Assembly (NCBI GenBank): GCA_003599475.1
Contig: QZKK01000237.1
Coordinates: forward strand, 1 to 16,369
Direction: 5' to 3'
Source: Desulfobacteraceae bacterium
Lineage (GTDB): Bacteria > Desulfobacterota > Desulfobacteria > Desulfobacterales > SURF-15
DNA length: 16,369 nt
Positions 41 through 14,667 of the stretch are shown piece by piece. A program made the position numbers and the translations under genes. Position 1 is the stretch's first letter; each line of letters begins with the position of its first letter. The notes below the pieces were generated by a model. That model was not told the origin of the DNA, ran no database searches, and saw only the letters and a list, made by a program, of their open reading frames with translations.

Positions 41-110
41 TTTGGATTTTGAGTTTCGAATTTGTTTTTAATTTGTTTCGGATTTCGATATTCGAATTTC
101 GGATTTTTTA
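41..110. repeat. 7-nt degenerate tandem repeat tract (TTTCGNN type) downstream of clpA
   Basis: AT-rich tract of imperfect 7-nt units. TTTCGGA, TTTCGAT, ATTCGAA and TTTCGGA follow one another in phase from 76 to 103, and looser copies (TTTGGAT, TTTGAGT, TTTCGAA) lie to the left. The units contain the palindrome TTCGAA, so both strands look alike. The tract ends about 8 nt before the clpA stop codon, that is, immediately 3' of clpA. No hairpin plus U-run is visible for clpA. Bases 1-40 show nothing recognisable. The same unit type recurs at 5741-5775. Confidence 0.7.
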
Positions 111-117
111 TGTAGTT

Positions 118-2400
118 TCACACAAGGACGTCGGTTTCGACGACCCCCGCTTCGATTTTCACATTTGCGAACTCAAACGTCAGATGATCGCCGATTACAT
201 CCACGAAGACATGCCCGCCCTTTGCAAGACGTCCGAAGAGGATCTCGTCGGAGAGGATATCCTTGATTTCGATTTGAATCAGCCTGCCCAGCGGCCGGGC
301 TCCGAACTTCGGGTCGTGCCCTCTTTCGGCCAGCCAGGTGCGCGCCTGTGGAGAAATTGAAATGGTTACCCTCTTGACCGTAAGCTGAGCCTGCAGCTCG
401 GCCATGAACTTATCGACCACCATCTCCATGATGTCCACGGTCAAAGCGTTGAAGGTGATAATGGCATCCAACCGGTTCCTGAATTCCGGGCTGAAGAACC
501 GCTCGATCGCCTTTTTCCCCTTGGATTCGGTCTCGTTTCTGGCCTCTCGGAAGCCGATGGTGTTGCTGGTCATCTCCCGGGCGCCGGCATTGGAGGTCAT
601 CATCACGATCACGTTTCGGAAGTCTGCCTTTTTGCCGGTGTTGTCGGTCAATGTGGCATGATCGAGAACCTGAAGCAGGATGTTGTAAAGATCGATATGC
701 GCTTTCTCGATTTCATCGAGGAGCAGGACGCTGTACGGGTGCTTCCGTATACCGTCGGTGAGCAGTCCGCCCTGGTCGAAGCCGATATACCCGGGAGGAG
801 CCCCGATGAGCCGGGCAACGGCATGCTTCTCCATGTACTCGCTCATATCGAACCGCATGAATTCGATTCCGAGTATCCTTGCGATCTGCCTGGCGACCTC
901 GGTTTTACCGACGCCGGTCGGACCGGTAAACAGAAAAGATCCGATCGGTCTTTCCGGCGCGCCGAGTCCGGCACGAGAACGCTTGATGGCTGTGATCAGC
1001 GACTTTATGGCCGTATCCTGGCCGTAAACGACCTTCCTGAGCTCCTCTTCGAGGGTCTCCAGCTTCCCACGGTCCGAGGTGGATACGCTTCGGTTCGGTA
1101 TCTTTGCCATTTTGGCCACGATCTTCTCGATATCGGCCGGGTGGATCTTTCTGCGATGCTCCCCGCCGGTCAATTTGATGAAGGCGCCGGCCTCATCGAT
1201 CACATCGATGGCTTTGTCCGGAAGGTATCTGTCGTTGATATATTTTGCGGACAATTCGACGGCTGCTTTCAGGGCTGCATCCGTATATTGAATGCCGTGA
1301 TACTCTTCATAGTAGGAGCGAAGCCCCTTCAGGATCTTTACACTTTCGCCGATCTGCGGCTCCGATATTTCGATTTTTTCAAACCGCCGCGACAGCGCAC
1401 GGTCTTTTTCGAAATGGTTTTTGTATTCCTCATAGGTGGTCGATCCGATACATCGCAGCTCGCCGGTGGAAAGTGCGGGCTTCAAGATATTGGAGGCATC
1501 CATGGAACCGCCGCTGGTGGCCCCGGCTCCGACGATCGTGTGGATCTCATCGATGAACAGGATGGCGTCTTTTTTCTTCTGCAGGGATGAAATAACGCCT
1601 TTGAGGCGTTGTTCGAAATCGCCTCGAAATTTGGTACCCGCCAACATTCCTCCCAGATCCAGAGAATAGATCCGCATATTTTTCAGAAGATCCGGCACTT
1701 CCTGAAGATACACTTTCTGGGCCAGGCCCTCGGCCATCGCCGTTTTCCCCACGCCCGGGTCCCCGACAAAGATCGGGTTGTTCTTTCGCCTGCGGCACAA
1801 CACCTGGATCGTCCGCTCGATTTCGAGACCGCGCCCGATCAGCGGATCCAGCTTCCCCATTGCCGCCTGTTCCACCAGATCGATCGTGAACATCTCGAGG
1901 GGATCCGATTTCTTTTTTTTGTCTCCCTTGTCGGCTTTCAAAAATCCGCCCGGAACGTGACGGAAGGAGGCGTCGGGCATCCCATGAGAGATGTAATTGA
2001 GCACATCCAGGCGGCTGATCCCCTCCTGGCTCAAGAAATAGGCGGAATGGGAATCTTTTTCCTGAAAGATCGATACCAGGATATCGCCGATGGTAACTTC
2101 CTGCTTCTCAGCCGATCGGGCATGGTTTACAGCGCGCTGAATCACCCTCTGAAACCCGACGGTCTGCTGGAGGACGTATTCCCTCCCTTCAGGGATCTGC
2201 TCCAGTTGATCGTCAAAATAAGTTTCCAGTTTCTGTTTTAGATTATCGATGTTTCCCGAGCAACTCTCCACGATATCGATGCCGGTGCTGTCGTGCAAAA
2301 TGGCATACAGCACATGTTCGATGCAGACATATTCATGACGTCTCTTTTTGGCTTCTCTGACGGCAAATCCAAGGGTTACGCTAAGCTCCTTGTTGATCAT
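118..2400 (-). CDS. clpA: ATP-dependent Clp protease ATP-binding subunit ClpA
   Basis: Cytoplasmic AAA+ unfoldase that feeds substrates to ClpP. The 760 residues are the usual ClpA length. An N-terminal Clp repeat domain (about 1-145) binds ClpS. The first AAA module has Walker A GDPGVGKT at 213-220 and Walker B LFIDEIH at 281-287. The second has Walker A GPTGVGKT at 493-500 and Walker B VLLLDEIEKAH near 558-568. The ClpP-docking tripeptide appears as IGF at 615-617 (IGL in many ClpA), which separates it from ClpB. There is no ClpB-type middle coiled coil. The ATG lies 3 nt after the clpS stop, with a purine-rich ribosome site (GGAGAAGGAA) inside the end of clpS, so the two are almost surely co-transcribed and perhaps translationally coupled. 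clpP is not in the window. Confidence 0.97.
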   Translation of the reverse strand: MINKELSVTLGFAVREAKKRRHEYVCIEHVLYAILHDSTGIDIVESCSGNIDNLKQKLETYFDDQLEQIPEGREYVLQQTVGFQRVIQRAVNHARSAEKQEVTIGDILVSIFQEKDSHSAYFLSQEGISRLDVLNYISHGMPDASFRHVPGGFLKADKGDKKKKSDPLEMFTIDLVEQAAMGKLDPLIGRGLEIERTIQVLCRRRKNNPIFVGDPGVGKTAMAEGLAQKVYLQEVPDLLKNMRIYSLDLGGMLAGTKFRGDFEQRLKGVISSLQKKKDAILFIDEIHTIVGAGATSGGSMDASNILKPALSTGELRCIGSTTYEEYKNHFEKDRALSRRFEKIEISEPQIGESVKILKGLRSYYEEYHGIQYTDAALKAAVELSAKYINDRYLPDKAIDVIDEAGAFIKLTGGEHRRKIHPADIEKIVAKMAKIPNRSVSTSDRGKLETLEEELRKVVYGQDTAIKSLITAIKRSRAGLGAPERPIGSFLFTGPTGVGKTEVARQIARILGIEFMRFDMSEYMEKHAVARLIGAPPGYIGFDQGGLLTDGIRKHPYSVLLLDEIEKAHIDLYNILLQVLDHATLTDNTGKKADFRNVIVMMTSNAGAREMTSNTIGFREARNETESKGKKAIERFFSPEFRNRLDAIITFNALTVDIMEMVVDKFMAELQAQLTVKRVTISISPQARTWLAERGHDPKFGARPLGRLIQIEIKDILSDEILFGRLAKGGHVFVDVIGDHLTFEFANVKIEAGVVETDVLV

Positions 2401-2403
2401 GAT

Positions 2404-2718
2404 CTATTCCTTCTCCATAGTGCATTTGAGGGGAAACCCGTTCTCAACGGCCAATACATGGACGGCTTCCACCTTTGTCTCGGCGATTTCATAAGAATAG
2501 TAGCCGCACAGGCCGACCCCCTGTTTGTGAACATTCAACATGATCCGGGTCGCTTCTGCTACGGGTTTGTTGAAAACGTGCATCAAAACCTCCACCACAA
2601 ATTCCATGGTGGTATAATCGTCGTTGTGGAGGAGCACCTTGTATATGGGCGGCTCATCCGTATCGTCCTTGATATCGGATGCGGCCTGATCTTCGTGTTC
2701 GGATTCGAATTTGCTCAT
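2404..2718 (-). CDS. clpS: ATP-dependent Clp protease adaptor ClpS
   Basis: Adaptor that binds N-degron substrates (N-terminal bulky hydrophobic residues) and delivers them to the N-domain of ClpA. It has 104 residues, as usual. A disordered acidic N-terminus (about 1-24) is followed by the folded core. The core has the family signature [17 protein letters not shown], whose HNDD segment lines the substrate pocket, and later [15 protein letters not shown]. Directly followed by clpA with a 3-nt gap. The ribosome site is modest (AGAGG about 12 nt before ATG). A good promoter lies about 210 nt upstream, so the mRNA would carry a long structured leader, described separately. Confidence 0.97.
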
Positions 2719-2861
2719 GGATCCAATGAACCTCTTTCAGAAAACCCGCCGAAAGCCGTGAAGGTTTACCCCAAGGATTGGTGAGCCGCATGCCCTCATG
2801 CCGGATTGACGGCTTCGCAAACGGCGGATTCAGGATCATTGCGGCTGAAACAGGAGCTCAA

Positions 2862-2924
2862 CAGTCACGCGCTTGTCGCCCTGGCAGGCTCCGGAACCTG
2901 AAGATTCCAACAAGCTCGACACTG
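2862..2924 (-). ncRNA. Predicted long hairpin in the clpS leader (or a small RNA)
   Basis: On the minus strand, 17 nt at 2924-2908 can pair with 17 nt at 2878-2862. Fourteen positions pair (one a G-U) and three do not. Nested inside is CAGGTT, loop CCGG, AGCCTG (2900-2885), a second perfect stem if one G-U pair is allowed. The -10 hexamer ends at 2929, so the transcript would start essentially at the base of this hairpin. It does not match the conserved parts of 6S RNA, SRP RNA or a tRNA that I can recall. It could be a 5' UTR element controlling clpS-clpA, a stabilising 5' hairpin, or an independent small RNA. The structure is seen; the function is inference. Confidence 0.4.
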
Positions 2925-2928
2925 CCAC

Positions 2929-2958
2929 AGTATAATCATTTCGGCCCGGTTTTGTAAA
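2929..2958 (-). promoter_or_regulatory. Sigma-70-like promoter for clpS-clpA
   Basis: The -35 box TTTACA (2958-2953, five of six consensus bases) and the -10 box TATACT (2934-2929, five of six) are 18 nt apart. The -10 context ATGATTATACT is identical to that of the secA promoter. It points at clpS, about 210 nt away, with no other gene between. Confidence 0.55.
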
Positions 2959-3099
2959 GCGAAAGTAGACCCGGACGTTGCGCGGGATCGGCGCCGCATA
3001 CCCGACGCATTCGTTTCAAAACCGGAATCCGTGTGGATTTTAGCAGATGGACGCCCCCCGTCTGCCCGGGCATGACAGGTTGCACCGTTAGGGTAAGTA

Positions 3100-5622
3100 T
3101 CAGGCACCGCAGCACTTTTTGTATTTTTTCCCGCTGCCGCAGGGGCAAGGGGAGTTTCGGCCGACCTTTTTTTCGGAACGTTTGACCGGGTTCTTCTTCG
3201 AGGGGCCGTCCCCGTGCGATAACACCAGCTCCCGATCCGCAGGTTTTCTGAGCTCCTGCATCGTCTCGGGCTGGGCGACCTGAATCCGGAACAGGATTCC
3301 CTGGGTTTCCTCCTTTACCCGGGAGACCATGTCCTGAAACATTTCAAACCCTTCTTTTTTGTAGACTGTCAGCGGATTCTGCTGCGCATAGCCGCGCAGC
3401 CCGATTCCCTCCTTCAGGTGGTCCATGCTCAACAGGTGGTCCTTCCAGAGGTTGTCGACCGTCTGCAGCATCACCAGCCGCTCGAGCTGACGCATCTCAT
3501 CGGCGCCGACGAGGGCTTCCTTTTCATGATACGTGCGCATGACGGCATCGAAAATGAGCCTGGCCAAACCTTCCCGGTCCATACCGTCCAGATTCTCCGG
3601 ACCGATATCGAGCTGAATATTGTATTGCTTTAAGACCGCTTTTTTCAATCCCGCGAAATCCCATTCCTCCGGCAGAACCCGAGGGTCTACAAAGAGATCC
3701 GATATCTCCTCCGCCTTTTCCCGGATCATCTCTTCGACATTCTCCTTCAGATCCCGGCCCTCCAGGATATCCCGCCGCTGTCGATAGATGACTTCGCGCT
3801 GCTGGTTCATCACGTCATCATATTCGAGCAGGTGTTTGCGGATGTCGAAGTTATGGGCTTCCACTTTGCGCTGGGCATTTTCAATCGCCCTGCTGATCAG
3901 GTTATGTTCGATCGGCACCCCTTCTTCCATCCCCAACCGGTTCATAATTCCGGTAATCCGTTCGCCACCGAAGATTCTGAGCAGGTCGTCTTCCAGAGCC
4001 ATGTAAAATCGGGACGAACCGGGATCTCCCTGCCTCCCGGAACGGCCCCGAAGCTGGTTGTCGATTCTTCGGCTCTCGTGTCTTTCGGTGCCCAGGATAT
4101 GGAGCCCGCCGAGATCGGTCACCCCGGGACCCAGCACGATATCGGTCCCGCGCCCGGCCATATTGGTCGAAATGGTCACAGAGCCTTTCTGGCCGGCCAT
4201 CGCGACGATTTCCGCCTCCTTCTCATGATTTTTCGCATTCAGGACGGAATGGGGAATGCCCCTGGTTTTGAGTATCTTGCTGAGCTGTTCCGAGACATCG
4301 ATCGATATGGTTCCGACCAGCACCGGCTGCCCCCGGCCGTGCAGTTCTTCTATTTCATCCAATACCGCTTCGTATTTTTCTCTTTTCGTTTTGTAGATCA
4401 TATCCTGATGATCGATTCGGATCATCGGCTCGTTGGTCGGTACGACGATGACATCCAGATTGTAGATTTTTTTAAATTCAGCCGCTTCCGTATCGGCGGT
4501 TCCGGTCATCCCGGCCAGTTTGTCGTACATTCGGAAATAATTCTGAAACGTAATCGTTGCCAGTGTCTGGTTCTCGTTTTCGATGCGTACTTTTTCCTTG
4601 GCCTCGAGCGCCTGGTGCAGCCCCTCGCTGTATCGGCGGCCCGGCATCAGCCGGCCGGTGAACTCATCGACGATGATCACCTGTCCGTCTTTCACGATAT
4701 AGTCGACATCACGCTTGAACAACGTATGGGCTTTCAACGCCTGGTTGATATGGTGCAGCAGCTCGATATATTTGGGATCGTAGAGATTTTCGACACCCAG
4801 CATGCTCTCGGCCTTCGCGACGCCTTCGTCCGTCAAAACGGCCGAGCGGGCCTTCTCGTCCAGGGTAAAGTCCTGATCCCGGATCAGGCGCGGGATGATC
4901 ATATCGACCTGATAATAGAGCTGAGTCGATTTTTCGGCAGGCCCGGAGATGATCAGAGGCGTTCTGGCTTCGTCGATCAGAATGCTGTCCACCTCGTCGA
5001 CGATGGCGAAGTTGAGCTCCCTCTGAACCAGCGCCTTCATATCAAACTTCATGTTGTCCCTGAGGTAGTCGAAGCCGAACTCGTTATTGGTACCATAGGT
5101 GATATCGGAGTTGTAGGCCGAAGCGCGCTCCCGGTCGTCGAGGCCGTGGACGATGGTACCGACGGAAAGGCCGAGGAACCGGTAGATCTTTCCCATCCAT
5201 TCCGTATCCCGCTTTGCCAGGTAATCATTGACGGTAATGACATGGACCCCCTTCCGGGTCAGTGCGTTGAGATAGGCCGGAAGCGTTGCAACCAGAGTTT
5301 TTCCTTCACCGGTTTTCATTTCCGCAATCCTGCCTTCATTCAGAACCAGACCGCCGATGATCTGGCAATCGAAGTGCCTCATGTTCAGGGTGCGGGCGGC
5401 CGCCTCCCGGACCGTTGCAAAGGCTTCCGGAATCAGGTCCTCCAGCGGTTCGCCTCTCCCGAGCCGTTCGCGCAAGAGCCCGGTTTGAGCGCCGAGCTGC
5501 GCGTCGCTCATCCCCCGGATCTTCGGCTCCAGTGCATTGGTTTGTTCGAGTACCGGTTGAAGTCGCTTTAGTTCGCGCTCGTTCTTGCTTCCAAAAACCT
5601 TGGTTAAAAAGTCAAAGACCAT
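3100..5622 (-). CDS. secA: Preprotein translocase ATPase subunit SecA
   Basis: Peripheral membrane motor that pushes unfolded preproteins through SecYEG using ATP. The 840 residues are near the usual length. Walker A TGEGKT is at 104-109, and the DEAD-type Walker B with its following segment is seen as [21 protein letters not shown] (an unmistakable SecA signature). [10 protein letters not shown] marks the start of the second motor half, and NMAGRGTDI and [11 protein letters not shown] are the helicase-like motifs V and VI. The C-terminus carries a SEC-C zinc motif, C826-x-C828-x8-C837-C838, used for SecB or lipid binding. The ATG is preceded by AAGGAG 14 nt upstream; AAAGG closer in may also help. 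The long open frame antisense to it is a shadow. Confidence 0.98.
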
Positions 5623-5666
5623 GGCCTTTAGACCGTCTCCTTCTGAAATATCTGTGAAAACATAAT

Positions 5667-5695
5667 AGTATAATCATATGACGACGGAGACTCAA
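5667..5695 (-). promoter_or_regulatory. Sigma-70-like promoter for secA
   Basis: The -35 box TTGAGT (5695-5690, four of six consensus bases) and the -10 box TATACT (5672-5667, five of six) have the ideal 17-nt spacing. The expected transcript start is near 5660, giving a leader of roughly 40 nt that contains the AAGGAG site. secA would therefore be transcribed separately from the M23 gene upstream. Confidence 0.6.
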
Positions 5696-5715
5696 GAAAA
5701 AGTTGCATTCGATCC

Positions 5716-5775
5716 GGTTGGGGGTTCAGGGTTTATGCTGTTTCGTATTTCGAATTTCGTGTTTCGAATTTCCCC
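5716..5775. repeat. Two adjoining 7-nt tandem tracts between the M23 gene and secA
   Basis: At 5741-5775 five exact-phase 7-nt units follow each other: TTTCGTA, TTTCGAA, TTTCGTG, TTTCGAA, TTTCCCC. Just to the left (5716-5736) are three units of another kind (GGTTGGG, GGTTCAG, GGTTTAT), also 7 nt apart. The tract ends 11 nt beyond the stop codon of the M23 gene (minus strand). A small TCCCC/GGGGA hairpin (5771-5784) lies at the junction but is not followed by U residues on either strand. Confidence 0.75.
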
Positions 5776-5786
5776 GATAGGGGAGA

Positions 5787-6731
5787 TCAGGATCCGCTCA
5801 GAATGTATTTCTCCGGATTTACCGGGATTCCGTTCAGATGGACTTCGTAATGGAGATGAGGACCGGTGGTTCTTCCCGAGCTTCCGACTTGCGCGATGAC
5901 ATCCCCCCTTCTGACCGTTTCCCCGCGTTTCTTCGTCGCCTTGTGGAGATGGGCGTATCGGGTGACGATTCCGTATCCGTGATCGATCACGATTAAATTC
6001 CCGAGATAGCCTTTCTTGCCGACAAAGGTGACGGCTCCGTCTGCGGTTGCATAGATCGGAGTTTTTTTGCTTGCAGCGATATCCAAGCCCTTGTGGAATT
6101 CCCGTTTGCCGGTAAAAGGAGATTTGCGGTATCCGAATCTGGAGGTTATCCAACCCTCGACTGGGCGGATTGCAGGAGTGCTGACCAGCATGTTCTGCTG
6201 ACTTTCAAGATGATCCAAGAGAGATAAAAACGCCTCCCGCTGGCTGTTGATGGCGCCGTTGAGCAGCTCTACCTGTTCATGCATTTCCCGCAAAAGGCTG
6301 TTGTGTTTTTCATCCAGATCGACCCGGGTGTCGATATCTTCCGGAAAAGAACCGCCGATTCCCAAAAATCCTTCCTGATCCTCGGAATCCAGATTGGCGG
6401 AATCCAGATTGGCGATTGCACGCACCTTCATTTCAGAATCGTTCAGTTTGTTCAGTTTTTCTTTTAAGAGATTGATCTCCTGTGCAAACTTCTGGATCTG
6501 CCTTCGTTGGGAGTTGATTTCGTGCTTCTGCTGCGAAAGGAGGCTGTCGAGAGGCCGATTGCTGAAGGATTTTCGGTACAGATGAAAATAGTGGTAGGCA
6601 GCAAATGCCGAGAGGAGAAACAAGAAGATGATTCCACCGGCGCAGAAACGGACGAAGGTCCTTGAAGCCGTAAATTGCTTCACCCGGGTTCCGGAGTCGC
6701 TGATCAGGCAAAAAGATATTTTTCTTTGCAT
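5787..6731 (-). CDS. Membrane-anchored M23 family metallopeptidase (peptidoglycan endopeptidase)
   Basis: Probable cell-wall hydrolase anchored in the inner membrane and acting in the periplasm. From the start chosen here (314 residues): a short cytoplasmic stretch, one membrane helix at about 29-47, a coiled-coil region at about 65-105 (Gln/Lys/Glu-rich heptads), then a C-terminal LytM domain. Zinc ligands are visible: H213 and D217 in FHKGLD, and H294 with catalytic H292 in HLHYEV. All key residues are present, so it should be active, unlike degenerate EnvC-type activators. The start is uncertain. ATG 6731 is preferred because MQRKISFCLIS matches the usual N-terminus of such proteins, but its SD is weak. 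In-frame ATG 6776 and TTG 6797 lie inside a perfect inverted repeat and would add 15 or 22 residues. A 15-bp tandem duplication is present near residues 106-116. Confidence 0.9.
   Translation of the reverse strand: MQRKISFCLISDSGTRVKQFTASRTFVRFCAGGIIFLFLLSAFAAYHYFHLYRKSFSNRPLDSLLSQQKHEINSQRRQIQKFAQEINLLKEKLNKLNDSEMKVRAIANLDSANLDSEDQEGFLGIGGSFPEDIDTRVDLDEKHNSLLREMHEQVELLNGAINSQREAFLSLLDHLESQQNMLVSTPAIRPVEGWITSRFGYRKSPFTGKREFHKGLDIAASKKTPIYATADGAVTFVGKKGYLGNLIVIDHGYGIVTRYAHLHKATKKRGETVRRGDVIAQVGSSGRTTGPHLHYEVHLNGIPVNPEKYILSGS
6385..6414. repeat. Perfect 15-bp tandem duplication inside the M23 gene
   Basis: GAATCCAGATTGGCG occurs twice with no gap (6385-6399 and 6400-6414). It keeps the frame and duplicates five residues (ANLDS type) in the linker after the coiled coil. 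It looks like a recent slippage event in a tolerant linker. Confidence 0.85.
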
Positions 6732-6772
6732 TCTTTCGGCAAAATATCCGGTGGACTGTTTACAGGTATCGC

Positions 6773-6809
6773 TCATGACAGGGGCGATGCGGTTCAACCC
6801 CTGTCATGA
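6773..6809. promoter_or_regulatory. Perfect 12-bp inverted repeat between folD and the M23 gene
   Basis: TCATGACAGGGG (6773-6784) and CCCCTGTCATGA (6798-6809) are exact reverse complements around a 13-nt loop. It begins 51 nt past the folD stop and ends 42 nt before the preferred start of the M23 gene. Neither strand has a U-run after it, so it is not a standard terminator. It could be an mRNA hairpin (attenuator or processing site) or a dimeric protein-binding site. It also contains the alternative ATG at 6776, which folding would hide. Confidence 0.6.
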
Positions 6810-6859
6810 ACCCGAATTTTCCCGCTCCAATTCTGCAACAGACAGCCTCAGAGAACACC

Positions 6860-7768: not shown

Positions 7769-7826
7769 CGTCCTATCTCCTTTTCTATCGTTTTTTGAAT
7801 TTCTGCAATTTATATGCCTTATTTGT

Positions 7827-7990
7827 AACCGTTCACCGGTTCAGCGTTAAAAGGTTTAAAGGTTGGTTGATTTCAATGTCTTAAGACTCTATTAAGGACT
7901 CTTGATGTTCTCTAATTATTTTAGGACAAAAACCTGTAAGCCAGCGCAGTTCTAAACCTCTGAACGTTGAACCTTTGAGCCCCTGAACGC
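7827..7990. repeat. Palindromic element: two facing 8-nt repeat tracts with 23-bp imperfect inverted arms
   Basis: The left tract (7827-7866) has five 8-nt units such as ACCGGTTC, AGCGTTAA and AAGGTTTA. The right tract (7951-7990) has units of 7-8 nt such as TCTAAACC, TCTGAACG and TTGAACC. The reverse complement of 7951-7973 matches 7838-7860 at 19 of 23 positions by my alignment. The core between the arms is 90 nt, AT-rich and non-coding. It resembles a small non-autonomous palindromic element in shape, but no target-site duplication was established. Confidence 0.65.
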
Positions 7991-8098
7991 TTACGATGTT
8001 TCACGACTCTGCCTGTATCACGAGTTTCGTCTTCAGACAAGCGCTCAAATTACGACACCGCCGCAAGCGATGGAGAATGAACCATAGGCGCCTTCCTG

Positions 8099-8132
8099 CA
8101 TTTCGTGTGTTTCGTGTGTTTCGTGGTTAAAG
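8099..8132. repeat. 9-nt tandem repeat tract (TTTCGTGTG type)
   Basis: TTTCGTGTG (8101-8109), TTTCGTGTG (8110-8118), TTTCGTGGT (8119-8127), then TAAAG. The end TTTCGTGGTTAAAG is identical to the right end of the element at 11499-11581, so it looks like a solitary half of that element. Read on the minus strand it encodes TKHTKHTK. Confidence 0.8.
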
Positions 8133-8173
8133 CAGCCCGATTTTGCGGTAGATTTAAAGGGCGGATCGCAAAA

Positions 8174-8194
8174 AGCAGAGAGCGGAGATCGGAG
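8174..8194. repeat. Short 7-nt tandem tract (ATCGGAG type)
   Basis: Three in-phase 7-nt units, AGCAGAG, AGCGGAG and ATCGGAG. The unit type resembles that of the tract fused to the end of lipB (12314-12362). With only three copies, chance cannot be excluded. Confidence 0.5.
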
Positions 8195-8200
8195 AGTATT

Positions 8201-8229
8201 TCGATATTGAATAAATCGGAAAATATCGA
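8201..8229. promoter_or_regulatory. 8-bp inverted repeat upstream of gcvH
   Basis: TCGATATT (8201-8208) and AATATCGA (8222-8229) are exact reverse complements separated by 13 nt, in AT-rich DNA 67 nt before the gcvH start. Its position and symmetry suggest an operator for a dimeric regulator of the gcv operon. A TTGAAT (8207-8212) with TAAGTA 17 nt on is at best a poor promoter overlapping it. Function is inference. Confidence 0.35.
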
Positions 8230-8296
8230 TAAGTAAAAAGCACGCTCAAAAAGTTCCATTTGGAAACGAAATCTTCGATGAAAAAAGGGGGAAATC

Positions 8297-8701
8297 ATGA
8301 AGGAACTGGACGAATTGAACCTGCCGGAAGATGTCCGTTATGCCGAAGATCACGAATGGGTCAAGACCGATTCGGGTACGACGAGAATCGGCATCAGCGA
8401 TTATGCCCAGGACCAGCTCGGGGACATCGTTTACGTGGAGCTGCCGAGCGTCGGCCAAACGCTCAACAAGGGGGATGCGTTCGGCACCGTCGAATCCGTC
8501 AAGGCCGTATCCGAGCTCTACATGCCGATCGGAGGCGAGGTGACCGCGGTCAACAAGAAACTGGAGGACTCGCCCGATCTGGTAAACGTACAGCCCTACG
8601 GCGAGGGCTGGATGATCGAGATCAAATCCGCGGATCCCGCCGAGATGGATTCCCTCATGACAAAACAAGAGTATTTAAAGATGCTGAAAGAGAAGGAATA
8701 G
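8297..8701 (+). CDS. gcvH: Glycine cleavage system H protein
   Basis: Lipoyl-carrying shuttle protein of the glycine cleavage system. It takes the aminomethyl group from the P protein and presents it to the T protein. It has 134 residues, about the family length. The lipoyl attachment lysine is K69 in GTVESVKAVSELYMP. The preceding YVELPSVGQTLNKGD and following NVQPYGEGWMIEI segments are classic. The start is fixed by a strong AAGGGGG SD 5 nt before ATG. It is the first gene of the rightward operon, and its stop codon touches the gcvPA start. Its modification needs LipB and LipA, encoded downstream in the same direction. Confidence 0.97.
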   Translation: MKELDELNLPEDVRYAEDHEWVKTDSGTTRIGISDYAQDQLGDIVYVELPSVGQTLNKGDAFGTVESVKAVSELYMPIGGEVTAVNKKLEDSPDLVNVQPYGEGWMIEIKSADPAEMDSLMTKQEYLKMLKEKE

Positions 8702-10030
8702 ATGCGATATCTACCGCACACCGGGGAAGATATATCCCGGATGCTCGCGGCGATCGGATTGGACAGCCTGGAAGCCCTCTTTGCCCAAATCCCCGCCGAA
8801 TGCCGCCATACCGAGGATCTGAAACTGCCCGAAGCCCTGACGGAATGGGAGCTGGAGGAGCGGATGAACGCCCTTTCCAGTACCGTGGCTGTCGCGCCGG
8901 AATACCGGCTGTGGCTGGGGGCCGGCAGCTACGATCACTACATTCCCGCATCGGTTTCCCACCTTTTGAGCCGGTCTGAATTCGTAACTTCCTATACGCC
9001 GTACCAGCCGGAGATCTCTCAGGGGACCCTGCAGGGCATATTCGAGTATCAGACGCTGGTTGCACGCCTGCTCGGGATGGAAGTCGCCAATGCCTCCATT
9101 TACGACGGCGCCTCGGCGATGGCGGAAGCTCTGTTGATGACGATCCGGATCACCGGCAGAAAACGCATTGCGGTATCCTCGGCCGTACACCCCCATTACC
9201 GCCGGGTGCTTGAGACCTATTTCAAGCCGTCCGGGCATGAAATCATCCTGCTTCCGGTGCTCGAAAACGGCACGACCGATCTTTCCCCGATCGACTCGCT
9301 CGACGGACTTGCAGGGGTAGCCGTGCAGTCTCCCAATTTCTTCGGCTGCATCGAAGACCTGAAGCAGGCCGCCGAAACGGCGCATTCGAAGGGTGCGCTG
9401 TCTGTTTCGGTGTTTACCGAACCTCTTGCCTACGGCCTCCTGAAGAGTCCGGGCAGCCAGGGAGCAGACATTTCCTGCGGGGAAGGGCAGAGCCTTGGCA
9501 TCCCGCGCTCCCTGGGAGGGCCCGCTCTCGGCCTCTTCGCCTCCAGGCGAAATTACGTTCGGAGCATGCCCGGGCGGCTGGTCGGTCAAACCGTCGATCG
9601 GGAGGGGAAAAGGGGGTTTGTATTGACGCTGGCCACCCGTGAGCAGCATATCCGGCGGGAAAAGGCCACCTCCAATATCTGTACGAACAACAGCCTCTGC
9701 GCGATGGCTGCCGCGATGTATATGGCCTCGGTTGGGGGTACCGGCTTCAGGGAGCTGGCCCGGCTGAACTACGACAAGTGCGCGTATCTGAAAGCGGCGC
9801 TAAGAAACGCCGGTTTCGAAATCCCGTTTGAAACCCCCACTTTCAACGAATTCGTAACCGCGATTCCGCCGAAAGTTTACCGCCGGCTGCTTAAAAAAAA
9901 GACCGTTGCAGGCCTTCCGCTGGGGCCGTACTACCCCAAACGCCGGTTTTCAGACAAGTATCTTCTGTGCGTGACGGAGACGGCTTCCAAAGAAGCCATG
10001 GATGATCTCATCAAGGAGCTGTCATCATGA
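8702..10030 (+). CDS. gcvPA: Glycine dehydrogenase (aminomethyl-transferring), subunit 1 (P protein, N-terminal half)
   Basis: Non-lysine half of the split P protein, the PLP enzyme that decarboxylates glycine and loads the aminomethyl group onto lipoyl-GcvH. Its 442 residues match the GcvPA family. Signature stretches include YDHYIPASVSHLLSR, FVTSYTPYQPEISQGTLQ and the later EQHIRREKATSNICTNN. It carries no PLP lysine, as expected for this subunit. The ATG directly follows the gcvH TAG, with AAGGAA at the end of gcvH as SD. Its stop overlaps the gcvPB start by four bases (ATGA), which favours coupled, equimolar synthesis of the two halves. Confidence 0.97.
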   Translation: MRYLPHTGEDISRMLAAIGLDSLEALFAQIPAECRHTEDLKLPEALTEWELEERMNALSSTVAVAPEYRLWLGAGSYDHYIPASVSHLLSRSEFVTSYTPYQPEISQGTLQGIFEYQTLVARLLGMEVANASIYDGASAMAEALLMTIRITGRKRIAVSSAVHPHYRRVLETYFKPSGHEIILLPVLENGTTDLSPIDSLDGLAGVAVQSPNFFGCIEDLKQAAETAHSKGALSVSVFTEPLAYGLLKSPGSQGADISCGEGQSLGIPRSLGGPALGLFASRRNYVRSMPGRLVGQTVDREGKRGFVLTLATREQHIRREKATSNICTNNSLCAMAAAMYMASVGGTGFRELARLNYDKCAYLKAALRNAGFEIPFETPTFNEFVTAIPPKVYRRLLKKKTVAGLPLGPYYPKRRFSDKYLLCVTETASKEAMDDLIKELSS

Positions 10031-11484
10031 ATACGGGACTCGGTACGACCGGTCTGATACTGAATGAACCGCTGCTGTGGGAAAAGGGAAGAAAAGGGAG
10101 ATGCGGCTTCTCCATTCCCCGGCGCGATGTGCCCGAAGCGGGGGCGGATGCCGCAATCTGCGGCGAGGGTCCGGATTTTCCCGATCTTAGCGAAGTCGAC
10201 GTGGTGCGCCACTACACGCGACTTTCTCAATGGAATTTCGGCGTCGATACCGGAATGTATCCGCTGGGATCCTGCACCATGAAGTACAACCCGAAGATCA
10301 ACGAAAAGATGGCGCAACTGAACGGCTTTGCGGGCGCACACCCGCTCCTTCCGGCTTCGATGGTGCAGGGTGCGCTCCGGATCATGTTCGAGCTCGAACG
10401 GTACCTTGCCGAGATCACCGGAATGGATGCCGTATCGGTACAGCCGGCGGCGGGGGCACACGGCGAGCTTACCGGAATGCTGATCCTTCACGCCTATCAT
10501 GAGAAAAGCGGAAAGCAGCGAAACAAGATCATCGTCCCGGACACTGCACACGGCACCAATCCGGCCAGCGCCGCCCTCTGCGGATACCGCCCGGTCTCTG
10601 TCAAGGTAAACGAGCAGGGAATCCTCAACGTCGAACAGATTCAGGCGGTCATGGATTCCGACACCGCCGGCATCATGCTCACCAACCCGAACACGCTGGG
10701 GCTTTTCGAAGAAAACATCCAACCCATCGCGGATATCGTTCATTCCCGGGGAGGTTTGGTTTACTGCGACGGCGCCAACATGAATGCGCTGATGGGGATC
10801 GTCAGCATGGGGTGTGCCGGTGTCGATGTCATGCACCTGAATCTGCACAAGACCTTTTCCACGCCTCACGGCGGCGGCGGGCCGGGGGCTGGCCCCGTCT
10901 GCGTGAAGAAGCATCTGGAGCCCTTTCTGCCGGTGCCGAGAATCGTCGAGGGGAAAAACGGACTGGCCCTGTCCGAAGACTATCCCCTTTCCGTCGGCAG
11001 ACTCCACGCCTTCTTCGGAAGCTTCGGCGTGCTGGTAAAGGCCTATGCCTATATCCGGAGCATGGGACCCGACGGGTTGAAGCAGGCAAGCCGGCTGGCT
11101 GTCCTCAACGCAAACTACGTCAAGGAAAAACTCAAGGGGACGCTGCATCTTCCCTACGACCGGATATGCATGCACGAGTGCGTCTTTTCCGATAAGTATC
11201 AGAAAGACTTCAAGGTGACCACCCTCGATATAGTCAAGCGTCTGATCGATTACGGATTCCACCCCCCCACGATCTATTTCCCCCTGGTGGTCAACGGAGC
11301 CATCATGATCGAGCCCTGCGAAACAGAATCCAAAGAGGACCTGGACCGGCTGATCGAAGCCTTTCAATCGATTGCCGTAGAGGCCGAAGAAAGCCCGGAG
11401 CTTCTCAAAAATGCCCCGACACGGGGCAAGGTCAGACGGCTGGACGAGACGGCCGCCGCGCGGAATCCTTGTCTGACGGGGTAG
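10027..11484 (+). CDS. gcvPB: Glycine dehydrogenase (aminomethyl-transferring), subunit 2 (P protein, C-terminal half)
   Basis: PLP-binding half of the split glycine decarboxylase (485 residues). The PLP lysine is K275 in LNLHKTFSTPHGGGGPG. MYPLGSCTMKYNP near the N-terminus and VPDTAHGTNPASA are further family signatures. It overlaps gcvPA by ATGA and has AAGGAG as SD. The split P protein is usual in Firmicutes, archaea and Desulfobacterota, whereas E. coli has a fused form. A 121-nt gap with a palindromic repeat element separates it from lipB. The long open frame on the opposite strand is a shadow. Confidence 0.97.
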   Translation: MNTGLGTTGLILNEPLLWEKGRKGRCGFSIPRRDVPEAGADAAICGEGPDFPDLSEVDVVRHYTRLSQWNFGVDTGMYPLGSCTMKYNPKINEKMAQLNGFAGAHPLLPASMVQGALRIMFELERYLAEITGMDAVSVQPAAGAHGELTGMLILHAYHEKSGKQRNKIIVPDTAHGTNPASAALCGYRPVSVKVNEQGILNVEQIQAVMDSDTAGIMLTNPNTLGLFEENIQPIADIVHSRGGLVYCDGANMNALMGIVSMGCAGVDVMHLNLHKTFSTPHGGGGPGAGPVCVKKHLEPFLPVPRIVEGKNGLALSEDYPLSVGRLHAFFGSFGVLVKAYAYIRSMGPDGLKQASRLAVLNANYVKEKLKGTLHLPYDRICMHECVFSDKYQKDFKVTTLDIVKRLIDYGFHPPTIYFPLVVNGAIMIEPCETESKEDLDRLIEAFQSIAVEAEESPELLKNAPTRGKVRRLDETAAARNPCLTG

Positions 11485-11498
11485 AAGGCGGGAACGCA

Positions 11499-11581
11499 AA
11501 CCACGAAACACACGAAATACACGAAAAAGTCAAAAAGAAACTCTCGATCGTTTTTCGTGTCTTTTCGTTTTTTTCGTGGTT
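11499..11581. repeat. Palindromic element made of 9-nt tandem repeats (TTTCGTGTG type) between gcvPB and lipB
   Basis: The left arm (11499-11528) has 9-nt units such as ACCACGAAA, CACACGAAA and TACACGAAA. The right arm (11551-11581) runs the other way with TTTTTCGTG and similar units, ending in TTTCGTGGTT. The arms are reverse complements over about 30 nt with three mismatches and one gap, around a 22-nt loop. On the plus strand this would form a long hairpin between gcvPB and lipB. No U-run follows. Its plus-strand translation gives NHETHEIHEK, a nonsense peptide typical of such tracts. It begins 15 nt after the gcvPB stop. Confidence 0.75.
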
Positions 11582-11605
11582 AAAGTTGGAATTCAGGATA
11601 CGAGG

Positions 11606-12388
11606 ATGCCCGAGGTGGATAAAGGAGATTGCGGCCGTCCGGCGTGGCTTGCGGTTGCCCTTCCCCGAAGCCCCTATATGGAAATTTGGCGCCTCCAGGC
11701 GGCCCTCGCGGCAGCCCGCAGGGAAGGGACGATCGATCGGGACGTCGTGCTCTTTCTGGAGCACCTGCCGGTCTTTACGCTGGGCCGCCGGGGAGGAAGA
11801 GAAAACCTGAAGGTCCCCGAGTCTTTTCTGGACGAATCAAAAATTCCGATCGTTCACGTCGAACGCGGCGGCAGCATCACGTATCACGGCCCCGGGCAGA
11901 TCGTAGTCTATCCGATCATCGACCTGAAAAACTCTCCTTTCTCGGTGATCGAATACGTCACGTGCCTCGAAGAGGTGATGATTCGAACGCTTGCCGCCTG
12001 GGGAATTCCGGCGGAACGAAATCGCCTCAACCGGGGTGTCTGGGTAAACGACTGCAAGATCGGAAGCCTCGGGGTGGCGATTCGAAGGGGCGTTTCCTTT
12101 CACGGCTTCTCGCTGAACGTCAGCGTCTCCATGGAGCCGTTCAAATGGATGCACCCGTGCGGACTCAAGGATGTGGGAGTCACCTCCATGTCGTGCGAGC
12201 TTGCACAGGATGTTCCGGTTGCAGGGGTTTTGGAGACGATGAAAAAACAGATGTCCGATGTCTTTCATGTGAACCTGATTCCGGCAGGCATCGACGGTTT
12301 GCTCCGGAAGATGGAAATCGGAGATCAGAGGCCGGAAGTCGGATGTCGGAAATCGGAAGAGCAGGAAGTTGAGAAGTTAAGAAGATGA
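11606..12388 (+). CDS. lipB: Octanoyl-[acyl-carrier-protein]:protein N-octanoyltransferase LipB
   Basis: Transfers octanoate from acyl-carrier protein to lipoyl domains such as GcvH; LipA then adds the sulfurs. The core is complete: ERGGSITYHGPGQ at 86-98, catalytic K151 in CKIGSLG, and catalytic C185 in WMHPCGLKDVGVTS. ATG 11606 is chosen (260 residues) because AGGA lies 7 nt upstream and WLAVALPRSPYMEIWRLQ then sits at the usual distance. An in-frame GTG at 11576 falls inside the preceding repeat element and is unlikely. The C-terminus is odd: residues 236-260 are encoded by tandem-repeat DNA (7-nt then 8-nt units), which also supplies the stop codon. The catalytic core is untouched, so it should work. 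lipA follows after 28 nt. Confidence 0.95.
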   Translation: MPEVDKGDCGRPAWLAVALPRSPYMEIWRLQAALAAARREGTIDRDVVLFLEHLPVFTLGRRGGRENLKVPESFLDESKIPIVHVERGGSITYHGPGQIVVYPIIDLKNSPFSVIEYVTCLEEVMIRTLAAWGIPAERNRLNRGVWVNDCKIGSLGVAIRRGVSFHGFSLNVSVSMEPFKWMHPCGLKDVGVTSMSCELAQDVPVAGVLETMKKQMSDVFHVNLIPAGIDGLLRKMEIGDQRPEVGCRKSEEQEVEKLRR

Positions 12389-12394
12389 GAAGAT
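12314..12394. repeat. 7-nt then 8-nt tandem tracts overlapping the 3' end of lipB
   Basis: Seven consecutive 7-nt units (12314-12362; for example GAAATCG, GAAGTCG, GATGTCG) are followed without a break by four 8-nt units (12363-12394; AGGAAGTT, GAGAAGTT, AAGAAGAT, GAGAAGAT). The phase is exact throughout each block. The lipB frame runs through both and stops at TGA 12386-12388, inside the 8-nt block. Two different periods meeting end to end is notable. Confidence 0.85.
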
Positions 12395-12416
12395 TCGCTT
12401 AGAGGATTTTGTAGAC

Positions 12417-13271
12417 GTGCAGAAAAAACCTCCATGGCTGAAAAGAAGGCTCCCTGCCGGACCCGCCGTCGAAGGCGTCCGGAATCTGATTGAAAAGAGC
12501 AACCTGCATACGGTTTGTCAGGAAGCGCGGTGCCCGAACATCTGGGAATGCTTCTCCTGTAAAACGGCCACTTTCCTGATTCTGGGTTCCACCTGCACAC
12601 GCAACTGCAGGTTTTGTGCGGTTTCCGGAGGACTCCCTTCCCCCGTCGATCCGGATGAGCCGGACAAAGTGGCCGAAGCGGCCGAAAAGATGCAGCTTTC
12701 CTATGTCGTGGTCACATCGGTCACCCGGGATGACCTCCCGGACGGCGGTGCCGGAATTTTTGCCCGGACGATTTTTGCGCTTCGGCAAAGGATCCCGAAC
12801 GTAAGGGTCGAGGTTTTGATACCCGATTTTCAAGGAGACAGGCAGGCTCTCGAAAAAGTGGTCGCCGCCCGCCCGGATGTCTTGAATCACAACATCGAAA
12901 CGGTCCCACGCCTCTATCCATTCGTAAGACCGCAGGCGGATTTCGGCCGATCCGTCGAGCTCCTCGCACGGGCGAGAAAAATCGATCGGGATATCGAGAC
13001 CAAATCCGGCATGATGCTGGGGCTGGGCGAAACCCCGCAGGAGGTAACGGAAGCTCTGGAGGCGCTGCGGAGTGCGGATTGCCGCTTTCTGACACTGGGC
13101 CAGTACCTGCAGCCGAGCCGGGAGCATCTGCCGGTTCGACGCTTCGTCCCGCCGGAGGAATTCGACCGATGGAAGCAGAAAGCCCTGGCGATGGGATTTC
13201 AACATGTCGCCAGCGGCCCTCTGGTCCGAAGCTCGTACCATGCCAAAGAACTGTATGACGAGGAATTTTAG
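12417..13271 (+). CDS. lipA: Lipoyl synthase LipA (radical SAM)
   Basis: Inserts two sulfur atoms into protein-bound octanoyl groups to give lipoyl. It has 284 residues and starts at GTG; the following KKPPWLKRRLPAGP is the standard LipA N-terminus, so the start is safe although the SD (AGAGG) is about 11 nt away. Both iron-sulfur clusters are intact: C34, C39 and C45 for the auxiliary cluster, and C60-x3-C64-x2-C67 for the radical SAM cluster. The conserved C-terminal RSS (271-273) is present. It lies 28 nt after lipB and works with it on GcvH. Its stop codon TAG (13269-13271) is inside a 7-nt tandem tract that begins at 13266. Confidence 0.98.
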   Translation: MQKKPPWLKRRLPAGPAVEGVRNLIEKSNLHTVCQEARCPNIWECFSCKTATFLILGSTCTRNCRFCAVSGGLPSPVDPDEPDKVAEAAEKMQLSYVVVTSVTRDDLPDGGAGIFARTIFALRQRIPNVRVEVLIPDFQGDRQALEKVVAARPDVLNHNIETVPRLYPFVRPQADFGRSVELLARARKIDRDIETKSGMMLGLGETPQEVTEALEALRSADCRFLTLGQYLQPSREHLPVRRFVPPEEFDRWKQKALAMGFQHVASGPLVRSSYHAKELYDEEF

Positions 13272-13293
13272 ATCTAAGATTTTAGATTTTTGG
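13266..13293. repeat. 7-nt tandem tract containing the lipA stop codon
   Basis: Four in-phase 7-nt units, TTTTAGA, TCTAAGA, TTTTAGA, TTTTTGG. The first unit contributes the TAG stop of lipA. The final unit gives a short T-run but there is no GC-rich hairpin before it, so it is not a standard terminator. Confidence 0.7.
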
Positions 13294-13347
13294 GCTGATT
13301 TTCGGCATTTACAGAGATCGGCTTCTCAGTTTACGGATTTTATCATT

Positions 13348-13373
13348 CTTTGCGTGCTTTGCGACTTTGCGTG
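13348..13373. repeat. 8-9-nt tandem tract (CTTTGCGTG type) upstream of alr
   Basis: CTTTGCGTG, CTTTGCGA, CTTTGCGTG in direct succession. It lies in the lipA-alr gap, 47 nt before the alr ATG. A GTG inside the last unit opens an in-frame upstream extension of alr that is very probably not used. The rest of the gap (13294-13347) shows no convincing promoter. Confidence 0.65.
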
Positions 13374-13420
13374 AGACTCTATTATTCGTATTCAGCGGCC
13401 CGGAAGGAAATTCATTTGCG

Positions 13421-14593
13421 ATGAACCTGGATAGAGTGGAACCTTATGTCACTTGGGCGGAGATCGACCTGAAGGCGATCGTGCACAACCTCCGGTCGTT
13501 GAAAAGCATTACCCGCGCTCCCGCACGGATGATGGCGGTGGTCAAAGCGAACGCCTACGGGCACGGGTATAAGGAAGTTTCGCGGGCTGCGCTTGAAGGC
13601 GGAGCGGATATGCTGGGAGTCGCCCGGATCGATGAGGCCGTGAGGTTGAGACAAGCGGGTCTCGACGCCCCGATTCTGATTTTCGGCTACACTCCGCCCG
13701 ATCATGCGAACCTCCTGATACGGCATCATCTCACTCAGACCGTCGGTTCCTATGAAATGGCTGCCGCCCTTTCGGAAGCGATTGCAGGGGGGGAAAGCAT
13801 CCGCATCCACCTGAAGGTGGATACGGGGATGGGAAGATTGGGGATCTTACCGGACTGCCGTCGGTTCGCGCCTTTAGGACCGAGTCGATTCGCCTCTGCT
13901 GTCGACGAGGTGAAGGCGATCGCCGGGCTGCCCGGGTTCGAGTTGGAGGGCGTCTATACCCATTTTGCGAGCGCGGACAGTTCGAATAAGACCGAAGCCG
14001 AACGGCAGTTTGAAATCTTTCAGGAATTTCTGCACGACCTCACCCGCGCCGGAATCGAATTTCCCGTCCGTCATGCGGCTAACAGCGCGGCCATCATCGA
14101 TATGCCGGAGACCCATTTGGATATGGTGCGGGCGGGCATTTCCCTCTACGGGCTCTATCCATCGGAGGAGGTGGACAAGAATCGGGTCTCTCTCCGCCCG
14201 GCGATGGCGCTGAAGACGCGCATTGCACACCTCAAGCGGGTTCCCGCAGGATTCAAGGTCAGCTATGGACTTACTTACGAGACAAACGCACCGACCACAA
14301 TCGCAACGGTTCCGATCGGTTACGCCGACGGCTTCGATCGCCTCCTCTCCTCCAGGGGGCATATGCTGGTCTGCGGAAAGCGGGCCCCGATCATCGGGCG
14401 AATCTGCATGGATCAGACGATGCTGGAAGTCGGACATATTCCGGAGGCAGGCCTCGATGAGGAGGTGGTGGCTTTCGGAAGCCAGCGGGGGCATTCGATT
14501 CCCGCAGAGGAGGTCGCCTCGACGATCGGCACCATCAATTACGAGGTCGTATCCAAGATCACCGAGCGGGTTTTTCGGCGCTATCTGAAGTGA
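13421..14593 (+). CDS. alr: Alanine racemase
   Basis: PLP enzyme that interconverts L- and D-alanine, giving D-alanine for peptidoglycan. From ATG 13421 it has 390 residues. The PLP lysine is K42 in VVKANAYGHG. KVDTGMGRLGI lies mid-barrel, the second catalytic base is Y282 in KVSYGLTYE, and RICMDQTMLEV follows in the C-terminal domain. No signal peptide is seen, so it should be cytoplasmic. The start was chosen because AAGGAA lies upstream and MNLDRVEPYVTWAEIDL aligns with known N-termini; a GTG 54 nt upstream sits in repeat DNA. It follows lipA by 149 nt and converges with holA. A repeat tract begins 2 nt after its stop. Confidence 0.97.
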   Translation: MNLDRVEPYVTWAEIDLKAIVHNLRSLKSITRAPARMMAVVKANAYGHGYKEVSRAALEGGADMLGVARIDEAVRLRQAGLDAPILIFGYTPPDHANLLIRHHLTQTVGSYEMAAALSEAIAGGESIRIHLKVDTGMGRLGILPDCRRFAPLGPSRFASAVDEVKAIAGLPGFELEGVYTHFASADSSNKTEAERQFEIFQEFLHDLTRAGIEFPVRHAANSAAIIDMPETHLDMVRAGISLYGLYPSEEVDKNRVSLRPAMALKTRIAHLKRVPAGFKVSYGLTYETNAPTTIATVPIGYADGFDRLLSSRGHMLVCGKRAPIIGRICMDQTMLEVGHIPEAGLDEEVVAFGSQRGHSIPAEEVASTIGTINYEVVSKITERVFRRYLK

Positions 14594-14594
14594 T

Positions 14595-14615
14595 GCGAGT
14601 TGCGCGTTACGGGTT
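14595..14615. repeat. 7-nt tandem tract (GCGNGTT type) just after alr
   Basis: Three in-phase units, GCGAGTT, GCGCGTT and ACGGGTT, starting 2 nt after the alr stop codon. Short, but the placement matches the other tracts at gene ends. Confidence 0.55.
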
Positions 14616-14627
14616 ATTATGCATTTC

Positions 14628-14667
14628 CCCGCGTCCCCGCGTCTCAGCGTCTCCGTGTCTTGCGCTA
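14628..14667. repeat. 8-nt tandem tract (CCCGCGTC type) between convergent alr and holA units
   Basis: CCCGCGTC, CCCGCGTC, TCAGCGTC and TCCGTGTC are in exact 8-nt phase (14628-14659), with TTGCGCTA following. The last segment contains the stop codon (TAG on the minus strand, 14667-14665) of the 69-residue gene. With the previous tract it fills the whole 71-nt convergent gap. No bidirectional terminator is visible. Confidence 0.8.

Follow-up and report, generated by a model that had tools for sequence, protein, structure and literature searches.

Short tandem-repeat tracts behind bacterial genes as probable ends of small elements carrying four-helix-bundle or GxxExxY genes

Heptamer repeats of cyanobacteria, Xanthomonas and other bacteria have been reported for decades, and we know of no mechanism behind them; PF05635 and GxxExxY are common protein families whose role is, to our knowledge, likewise open. 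Here we connect the two, starting from short-period tandem tracts in a stretch of 16,369 nt (the window) on contig QZKK01000237.1 of a Desulfobacteraceae bacterium (GCA_003599475.1). At a rough probability of 0.78, these tracts are the ends of small selfish intergenic elements, all copies in the window being gene-less derivatives. A complete element of about 400-500 bp consists of a left arm of three or four short units, one small gene and an inverted right arm. Two gene classes exist, one with a four-helix-bundle gene and mostly 7-8-nt units, the other with a GxxExxY gene and anchors 8-10 nt apart.

Several described systems come close. Intervening sequences (IVS) of rRNA contain an S23p open reading frame (ORF) bordered by complementary stem-forming sequences, occur sporadically and are called parasitic (PMC4990558). 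For Xanthomonas and Nostoc, PMC4692102 describes GGGAATC and GGGGA(C/T)T heptamers, mostly in four units, intergenic and at a mean of 28 nt from ORF ends, with 70-75 inverted pairs per Xanthomonas genome and a G-rich unit discussed as a quadruplex; heptanucleotides of Calothrix are known from the same source. The TAACTGA heptamers of Beggiatoaceae, Cyanobacteria and Bacteroidetes are dispersed and intergenic, with horizontal spread suspected; unlike the arms treated here they are direct and lie mostly before start codons, and the portions of that report cited here propose no element or gene (PMC4679880). None of the titles and opening lines of abstracts listed by searches of the open PMC literature tied four-helix-bundle/S23 or GxxExxY genes to tandem repeats. 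The Calothrix repeats are presumably those named STRR. Foldback transposons of eukaryotes likewise enclose a variable central part between inverted ends made up of short tandem units; compared with the elements here they are far larger, eukaryotic and equipped with unrelated genes.

The evidence for elements comes from the genes that lie between arms. The four-helix-bundle family (PF05635/TIGR02436) goes by the name '23S rRNA intervening sequence protein'. At 17 loci, taken from the stronger family-search hits and chosen without regard to arms, a tract was found upstream of the gene in 15, downstream in 13 and on both sides in 11, compared with 34, 27 and 1 of 333 control ORFs. Arm likeness tracks protein likeness (Mantel test over 162 cross-genome pairs from 19 elements, p 0.0015), and an arm begins no more than 12 nt from a same-strand stop codon in 11 of 15 cases, where 5.4 are expected. 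Units like those of the window also occur as arms of such genes: a TTTCG-type unit brackets a PF05635 gene in genome G220, GAAGTCG stands on the flanks of a four-helix-bundle-like ORF at locus L244, and at L003 the gap behind gcvPB holds a four-helix-bundle gene flanked by GGGTTACG heptamer arms.

The GxxExxY family (PF13366/TIGR04256) has a PD-(D/E)XK nuclease fold, and its loci were likewise obtained by family search. Flank-to-flank inverted similarity of at least 20 was present at 14 of 29 loci; it was seen for 0 of 341 small control ORFs, for 3 of 41 other ORFs located in these loci and for 6.5% of pairs mismatched on purpose. A motif of three CRCRRAR-like anchors spaced 8-10 nt apart occurred upstream of 20 of 30 genes, downstream of 16, on either side of 25 and on both sides of 11; the corresponding counts among 333 control ORFs were 0, 2, 2 and 0. 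Scanned over the 16.4-kb window, the motif matched exactly four of its tracts and nowhere else. Locus L335 displays the complete arrangement of arm, 112-aa GxxExxY ORF and inverse arm, the arms being identical over 30 nt. At L325 the gene begins within the arm, and this is the reason why the protein, from G036, starts with MNHETHENHEK. An earlier inspection of the window (the sequence-only reading) had pointed to nonsense peptides of the NHETHE kind in predicted proteins of environmental genomes, and this protein provides a concrete case.

Beyond the phylum, the pattern is found on plasmids from four phyla. Thirteen of 26 matching plasmid records of four-helix-bundle genes were examined: at score 8.5 all 13 had an upstream tract and 10 had tracts on both sides (12 and 9 at score 9), compared with 27 and 1 of 338 Desulfobacterota controls (24 and 1 at score 9). 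These copies span Cyanobacteriota, Pseudomonadota and Gemmatimonadota, with Pseudanabaena, Calothrix, Nostoc, Geminocystis, Stanieria, Picosynechococcus, Trichormus, Leptolyngbya, Azospirillum and Gemmatirosa as hosts, and some sit inside operons, between cas6 and cas4 or between cas10 and cmr3. Among the five of seven plasmid GxxExxY genes that were examined, those of Bernardetia, Gemmatirosa and Bacteroides have inverted arms of the CACAGAG/CGCAGAG type. The gene on Sphingomonas plasmid NZ_CP155749.1 (L410) lies between fabD and fabG with a near-zero spacer, a position suggesting that inserts inside essential operons are tolerated. Loci from IMG/VR had inverted flanks (similarity of at least 20) in seven of seven cases, two of them near-identical; at score 9 an upstream tract was present in six of seven and tracts on both sides in four.

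There is also a more sweeping reading, which we hold to be unlikely: a widespread, undescribed superfamily of one-gene selfish elements with short-tandem-repeat ends, gene 3' ends as targets and an RNA intermediate, explaining most heptamer and 8-10-nt tracts of bacteria and spanning at least Desulfobacterota, Cyanobacteriota, Pseudomonadota, Gemmatimonadota and Bacteroidota. The four-helix-bundle protein would then act on RNA copied by a reverse transcriptase supplied in trans, and the tandem arms would arise through template slippage during copying. Two four-helix-bundle proteins show a weak profile likeness to bAvd of diversity-generating retroelements (Pfam, E ~2e-4, below the cut-off). 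In the short plasmid stretches inspected, extending 150-700 nt to either side, no reverse transcriptase is annotated, and no search was aimed at these enzymes.

Returning to small selfish elements as such, one site exists as empty, gene-less and gene-bearing alleles, and another is occupied by different elements in close relatives, beside the flanking of genes by arms and the starts behind stop codons. Among 56 distinct gaps 3' of gcvPB, 16 carry a 7-8-nt tract starting no more than 25 nt after the stop codon, with units including ATTGAAG, GGGTTAC, CCCCGAA, GAGGGCT and AGGCGCA; the remaining gaps are short or tract-free, one having a tract further on. Within the close group G001, G002, G022 and G029, whose GcvPB proteins are 89.5-94% identical, the elements of G002 and G029 in this gap are very different. 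One gap of the group holds, between flanks 79-91% identical, a TCAGC-armed gene in G002, a different AGGCGCA-armed gene in G001 and G022 and a gene-less hairpin in G029, each beginning, by reading, 0-2 nt past the stop codon. On Nostoc plasmids, one junction follows a TraM-domain gene: here C052 and N. edaphicum are gene-bearing, ATCC 53789 has a gene-less element and C057 is empty, with a 52-nt spacer; the right arms, again by reading, count seven units in C052 and six in N. edaphicum. Searched against phages, the N. edaphicum region gave no match. The sequence-only reading had recommended a comparison of orthologous gaps; it shows that close relatives carry different elements in one gap and that between orthologous copies the number of complete 7-nt units varies.

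Some neighbouring structures were seen along the way. At L237:4079-4442 and its orthologue in G022, the loops of foldback-like elements hold different small G+C-rich palindromes at nearly the same place, as if these were inserts too. A palindrome of ~140 bp at L237:10118-10262, with ends of ~22 nt and an 8-nt target duplication TGATTTAT, faces an empty site in G001, and related matches occur elsewhere in G001, G022 and G029. Two candidates were discarded: L413 and L414, with arms 1.4 kb apart, have ordinary long ORFs between separate copies, and the copies on two plasmids of Calothrix brevissima share their flanks, which indicates a larger duplication rather than movement.

Unit sequences recur between genomes to an extent that contradicts the unrelated seeds proposed by the sequence-only reading. 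Both G061 and G064 contain an exact copy of the window 27-mer AACCACGAAACACACGAAATACACGAA, and a GxxExxY arm of G036 has only 2 mismatches to the window arm over 27 positions. A search for three CTTTGCG anchors separated by 0-3 nt matched 42 of 297 genomes of the phylum, and the reversed pattern 1 of 297 (16 sites); nearly all sites listed show a spacing of 8-8 or of 9-8, the one seen in the window. The pattern AACCACGAA-CACGAA-CACGAA, also with 0-3-nt spacers, matches 17 of 297 genomes and its reversed control 2, and among the sites listed the spacing is mostly exactly 9 nt with hypervariable 3-nt spacers; G397 and G366 deviate. In G397, arrays of AACCACGAACACG repeat every 13 nt, whereas arms elsewhere repeat every 9 nt. 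Four-unit TTTCGNN is present in 22 of 148 genomes; the reversed pattern, which is a heptamer too, matches 12 of 148, and strong excess is confined to single genomes (78:0 sites in G273, 25:0 in G246, 12:0 in G220). In the 12 regions of G273 that were viewed, the TTTCGNN tract forms the end, usually 31 nt long, of a dispersed palindrome, and variation of these arms is mostly limited to two of the seven unit positions. Four-unit CGGANNT does not exceed its reversed control overall (13 versus 17 of 148 genomes), being clearly above it only in G184 (31 versus 6 sites) and far below in G245 (0 versus 37). Allowing one mismatch, the pattern TTTCGTGTNTTTCGTG (9 nt) matched 6 of 20 genomes, as did its reversed control, and it was dropped.

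These data bear on replication slippage, by which short seeds would expand to 7-9-nt units, their size set by the polymerase footprint and the gene link incidental. As a sole cause we judge it very unlikely. It fits the orthologous copies that differ by whole units and long near-perfect repeat arrays such as that of L395, and PMC4692102 proposes a polymerase-footprint cause for the over-representation of heptamers in many bacteria. It does not fit two gene families bracketed by inverted arms, the verbatim 27-mer and anchor spacing conserved across genomes, or 31-nt arms in G273 that vary mostly at two of seven positions. Slippage on random seeds, the origin first suggested for the window, is for these reasons disfavoured as the main cause and survives as a secondary one, visible in the whole-unit differences between orthologues. 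A single repeat family for all tracts is excluded by the two gene-linked classes with their many unit sequences.

Genome-wide counts were made in sampled relatives of the window's organism, with simple gene calls of our own. Intergenic tracts of period 7 plus period 14 numbered 10+13 in G002 (338 kb), 45+5 in G012 (348 kb), 12+0 in G006 (253 kb) and 14+5 in G029 (287 kb), compared with 0-0.2 in shuffles; the called-coding DNA of the four held 3, 9, 3 and 0 period-7 tracts. Desulfopila aestuarii had none (136 kb) and Bacillus haynesii one (205 kb). The periodicity scan that the sequence-only reading had asked for, applied here to relatives, returned an intergenic 7-nt excess in all four of these genomes. 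An inverted partner within 200 nt was detected for 54 of 164 intergenic tracts, compared with 16 for a direct partner, 11 for the sequence of another tract and 1 for a shuffled one. When the 135 period-7/14 tracts are grouped by rounded length, four units is the most frequent size, with 61 tracts. In gaps between co-directional genes, 69 of 110 tracts lie closer to the upstream stop codon; 32 begin within 20 nt of that stop, and 16 have their end no more than 20 nt from the next start. The sense strand is purine-rich in 31 of the 37 tracts within 30 nt of a stop, versus 31 of 73 others. Conservation of phase within units (mean 3.95 mismatch-free phases versus 2.99, 81 tracts) was set aside as proof, since re-duplicated variant units would yield the same excess.

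Positions just past stop codons, purine-rich sense strands there and good folds are what one would expect of selected hairpins, serving as terminators or mRNA 3'-end structures with the repeats a by-product of long stems. Genes between arms, elements swapped at one site and the correlation of arms with proteins are left unexplained by such hairpins, which makes this account highly improbable. We give still less credence to operator arrays, in which the small proteins would be regulators binding repeats around their own gene and gene-less arrays would be distant operators: protein-specific arms and units with constant and variable positions agree with that idea, whereas arms inverted on both sides and the replacement of whole gaps argue against it, as does, as weak evidence, that no DNA-binding domain is reported beyond the two families. 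Quadruplexes fail as a common cause because many units are not G-rich: ATTGAAG, TTTCGAA and AAATTCC lack any run of three or more G, some other units being G-rich.

Taking small selfish elements as the preferred account, the window can be read tract by tract. Its genes include clpA, clpS, secA, an M23 peptidase gene, folD, gcvH, gcvPA, gcvPB, lipB, lipA, alr and a DNA polymerase III delta-like gene, named by reading the translations rather than by family search; within the genome collection searched, its gcvPB has its nearest relatives in Desulfobacterales-type metagenome-assembled genomes, the top seven 70-76% identical. A family search of its ORFs of at least 70 aa gave no four-helix-bundle or GxxExxY match. 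A scan of 1652 nt of intergenic DNA for periods 4-20 against 200 dinucleotide shuffles returned three segments of period 7, one of period 8 and two of period 9, with shuffle means of 0.04, 0.05 and 0.02 and the observed count reached in 0, 10 and 0 of 200 shuffles; periods 11, 14, 16 and 17 gave one segment each, matched by 5-9 of 200 shuffles, and the remaining periods none. The 13 tracts are present where the sequence-only reading had placed them, and in an interval test 10 of them were equalled by at most 4 of 300 shuffles; 41-110 (61/300), 7951-7990 (43/300) and 13348-13373 (18/300) are not clearly significant by periodicity alone. Their features are as follows.

41..117, no strand assigned: degenerate TTTCGNN heptamer tract abutting the clpA stop (118, clpA on the minus strand), with period 7 at 76-106.
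5741..5772, plus strand: TTTCGNN heptamer arm ~15 nt past the M23 peptidase stop; interval 5716-5775 equalled by 0/300 shuffles.
7827..7866, plus strand: left arm of a predicted hairpin element (fold z -3.3), assigned on structure.
7951..7990, plus strand: right arm of the same predicted hairpin, assigned by fold, its periodicity alone being weak.
8101..8130, minus strand: single GxxExxY-type arm, reading CCACGAAACACACGAAACACACGAAA on that strand; period scan, anchor motif and shuffles.
8174..8195, plus strand: short heptamer tract, classed from its period and position only.
11499..11581, plus strand: full gene-less hairpin with GxxExxY-type arms AACCACGAAACACACGAAATACACGAAA and its inverse, 15 nt past the gcvPB stop; arms of 30-31 nt, 26 predicted base pairs, z -3.0.
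12314..12362, plus strand: GAAGTCG heptamer tract, read as the LipB C-terminus; the unit also flanks the ORF in L244.
12363..12394, plus strand: GAGAAGTT octamer tract spanning the lipB stop (12388), again classed only from period and position.
13265..13290, plus strand: ATTTTAG heptamer tract spanning the lipA stop (13271), likewise classed only from period and position.
13348..13377, minus strand: GxxExxY-type arm, reading CACGCAAAGTCGCAAAGCACGCAAAG on that strand, spaced 9 then 8 nt; anchor motif.
14595..14615, plus strand: heptamer tract right behind the alr stop, resembling the GGGTTACG family (compare the L003 arms); 4/300 shuffles.
14628..14664, minus strand: GxxExxY-type arm, reading CACGGAGACGCTGAGACGCGGGGACGCGGG on that strand; period scan and anchor motif.

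At six gene ends (clpA, M23 peptidase, gcvPB, lipB, lipA and alr) the adjoining tracts lie no more than ~15 nt from the stop codon or across it, a placement on which the sequence-only reading did not remark; it is not shared by the tracts at 13348 and 14628 or by any of the four between folD and gcvH. A shared architecture with differing unit sequences, as first described for these tracts, is borne out. The claim of a strict period went too far, given the mixed spacing at 13348-13373 and a best period of 11 for 41-110, and an intergenic location fails for 12314-12388, where the lipB reading frame has its 3' end. The lipB frame runs into the heptamer tract at 12310-12388, so that the LipB C-terminus (~25 residues) is repeat-coded. 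Separately, the M23 peptidase gene contains a perfect 15-nt tandem duplication at 6383-6414. We conclude that the window tracts are gene-less remains of small elements, four of them of GxxExxY type (8101, 11499, 13348 and 14628). The others appear most like four-helix-bundle arms: TTTCG-type arms flank the PF05635 gene in G220, GAAGTCG the ORF in L244 and GGGTTACG the gene in L003.

As to how such elements might work, a protein encoded by the element, or one provided in trans, would recognise the arms and promote insertion or exchange behind stop codons. The arms of the transcript may pair, so that the insert is tolerated or, by analogy with rRNA IVS, excised by RNase III. Arms that have lost their gene would persist, whether as hairpins or as single tracts, and slippage would make them drift.

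A number of observations weigh against selfish elements as the source of the tracts. No movement was observed, and for 110 of the 164 tracts of the relatives a partner arm went undetected. Fifteen of 29 GxxExxY loci fall below the flank-similarity threshold, 5 of 30 genes of that family have no anchor motif on either side, and the motif itself was written after the GxxExxY arms had been viewed. Two of the 17 four-helix-bundle genes are without an upstream tract at threshold, and the gene at L386 is exceptional in having 9-nt units. The Sphingomonas gene of L410 has an upstream arm only, and that of Fusobacteria plasmid CP102406.1 (L412) has direct, not inverted, flanks. At the Nostoc junction ~41 nt are replaced with no clean target duplication, the sole clean 8-nt duplication belonging to another palindrome, that of L237, with heptamers only inside. 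The reversed-pattern controls of the heptamers also match in a number of genomes.

The link between repeats and genes turns an unexplained class of repeats into the ends of identifiable elements, could account for repeat tracts noted in many bacteria, and offers a testable role for the PF05635 and GxxExxY families. It suggests landing sites behind stop codons and also within operons (cas, fabD/fabG), and it warns annotators that repeat-coded peptides such as NHETHE are element arms.

Compared with known systems, the elements share with the IVS of 23S rRNA a PF05635-type ORF, inside the elements of relatives, and complementary stem-forming ends. They are not classed as IVS because the annotated plasmid copies and the G002/G001/G022 copy lie between protein genes and not in a 23S rRNA helix, and their stems consist of short tandem repeats. 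With miniature inverted-repeat transposable elements they have in common gene-less dispersed short palindromes (the TTTCG element of G273, the G001/G022 element) and gene-bearing relatives with ends of the same type (the GxxExxY element of G036, the PF05635 element of G220); they differ in arms built of short tandem units, and regular target duplication was not seen. Conserved anchors and association with gene families set them apart from a simple microsatellite, as they are not one motif expanded by slippage. Like the Xanthomonas and Nostoc heptamers, they are intergenic, form inverted pairs and are commonest in the four-unit class, and Xanthomonas campestris has a four-helix-bundle protein, XCC0516 (PDB 2gsc); unlike them, they use many, often non-G-rich units per genome and are linked to two gene families. 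Neither of the two nearest definitions fits fully, and among known systems the architecture most resembles the rRNA intervening sequences and the heptamer pairs of Xanthomonas.

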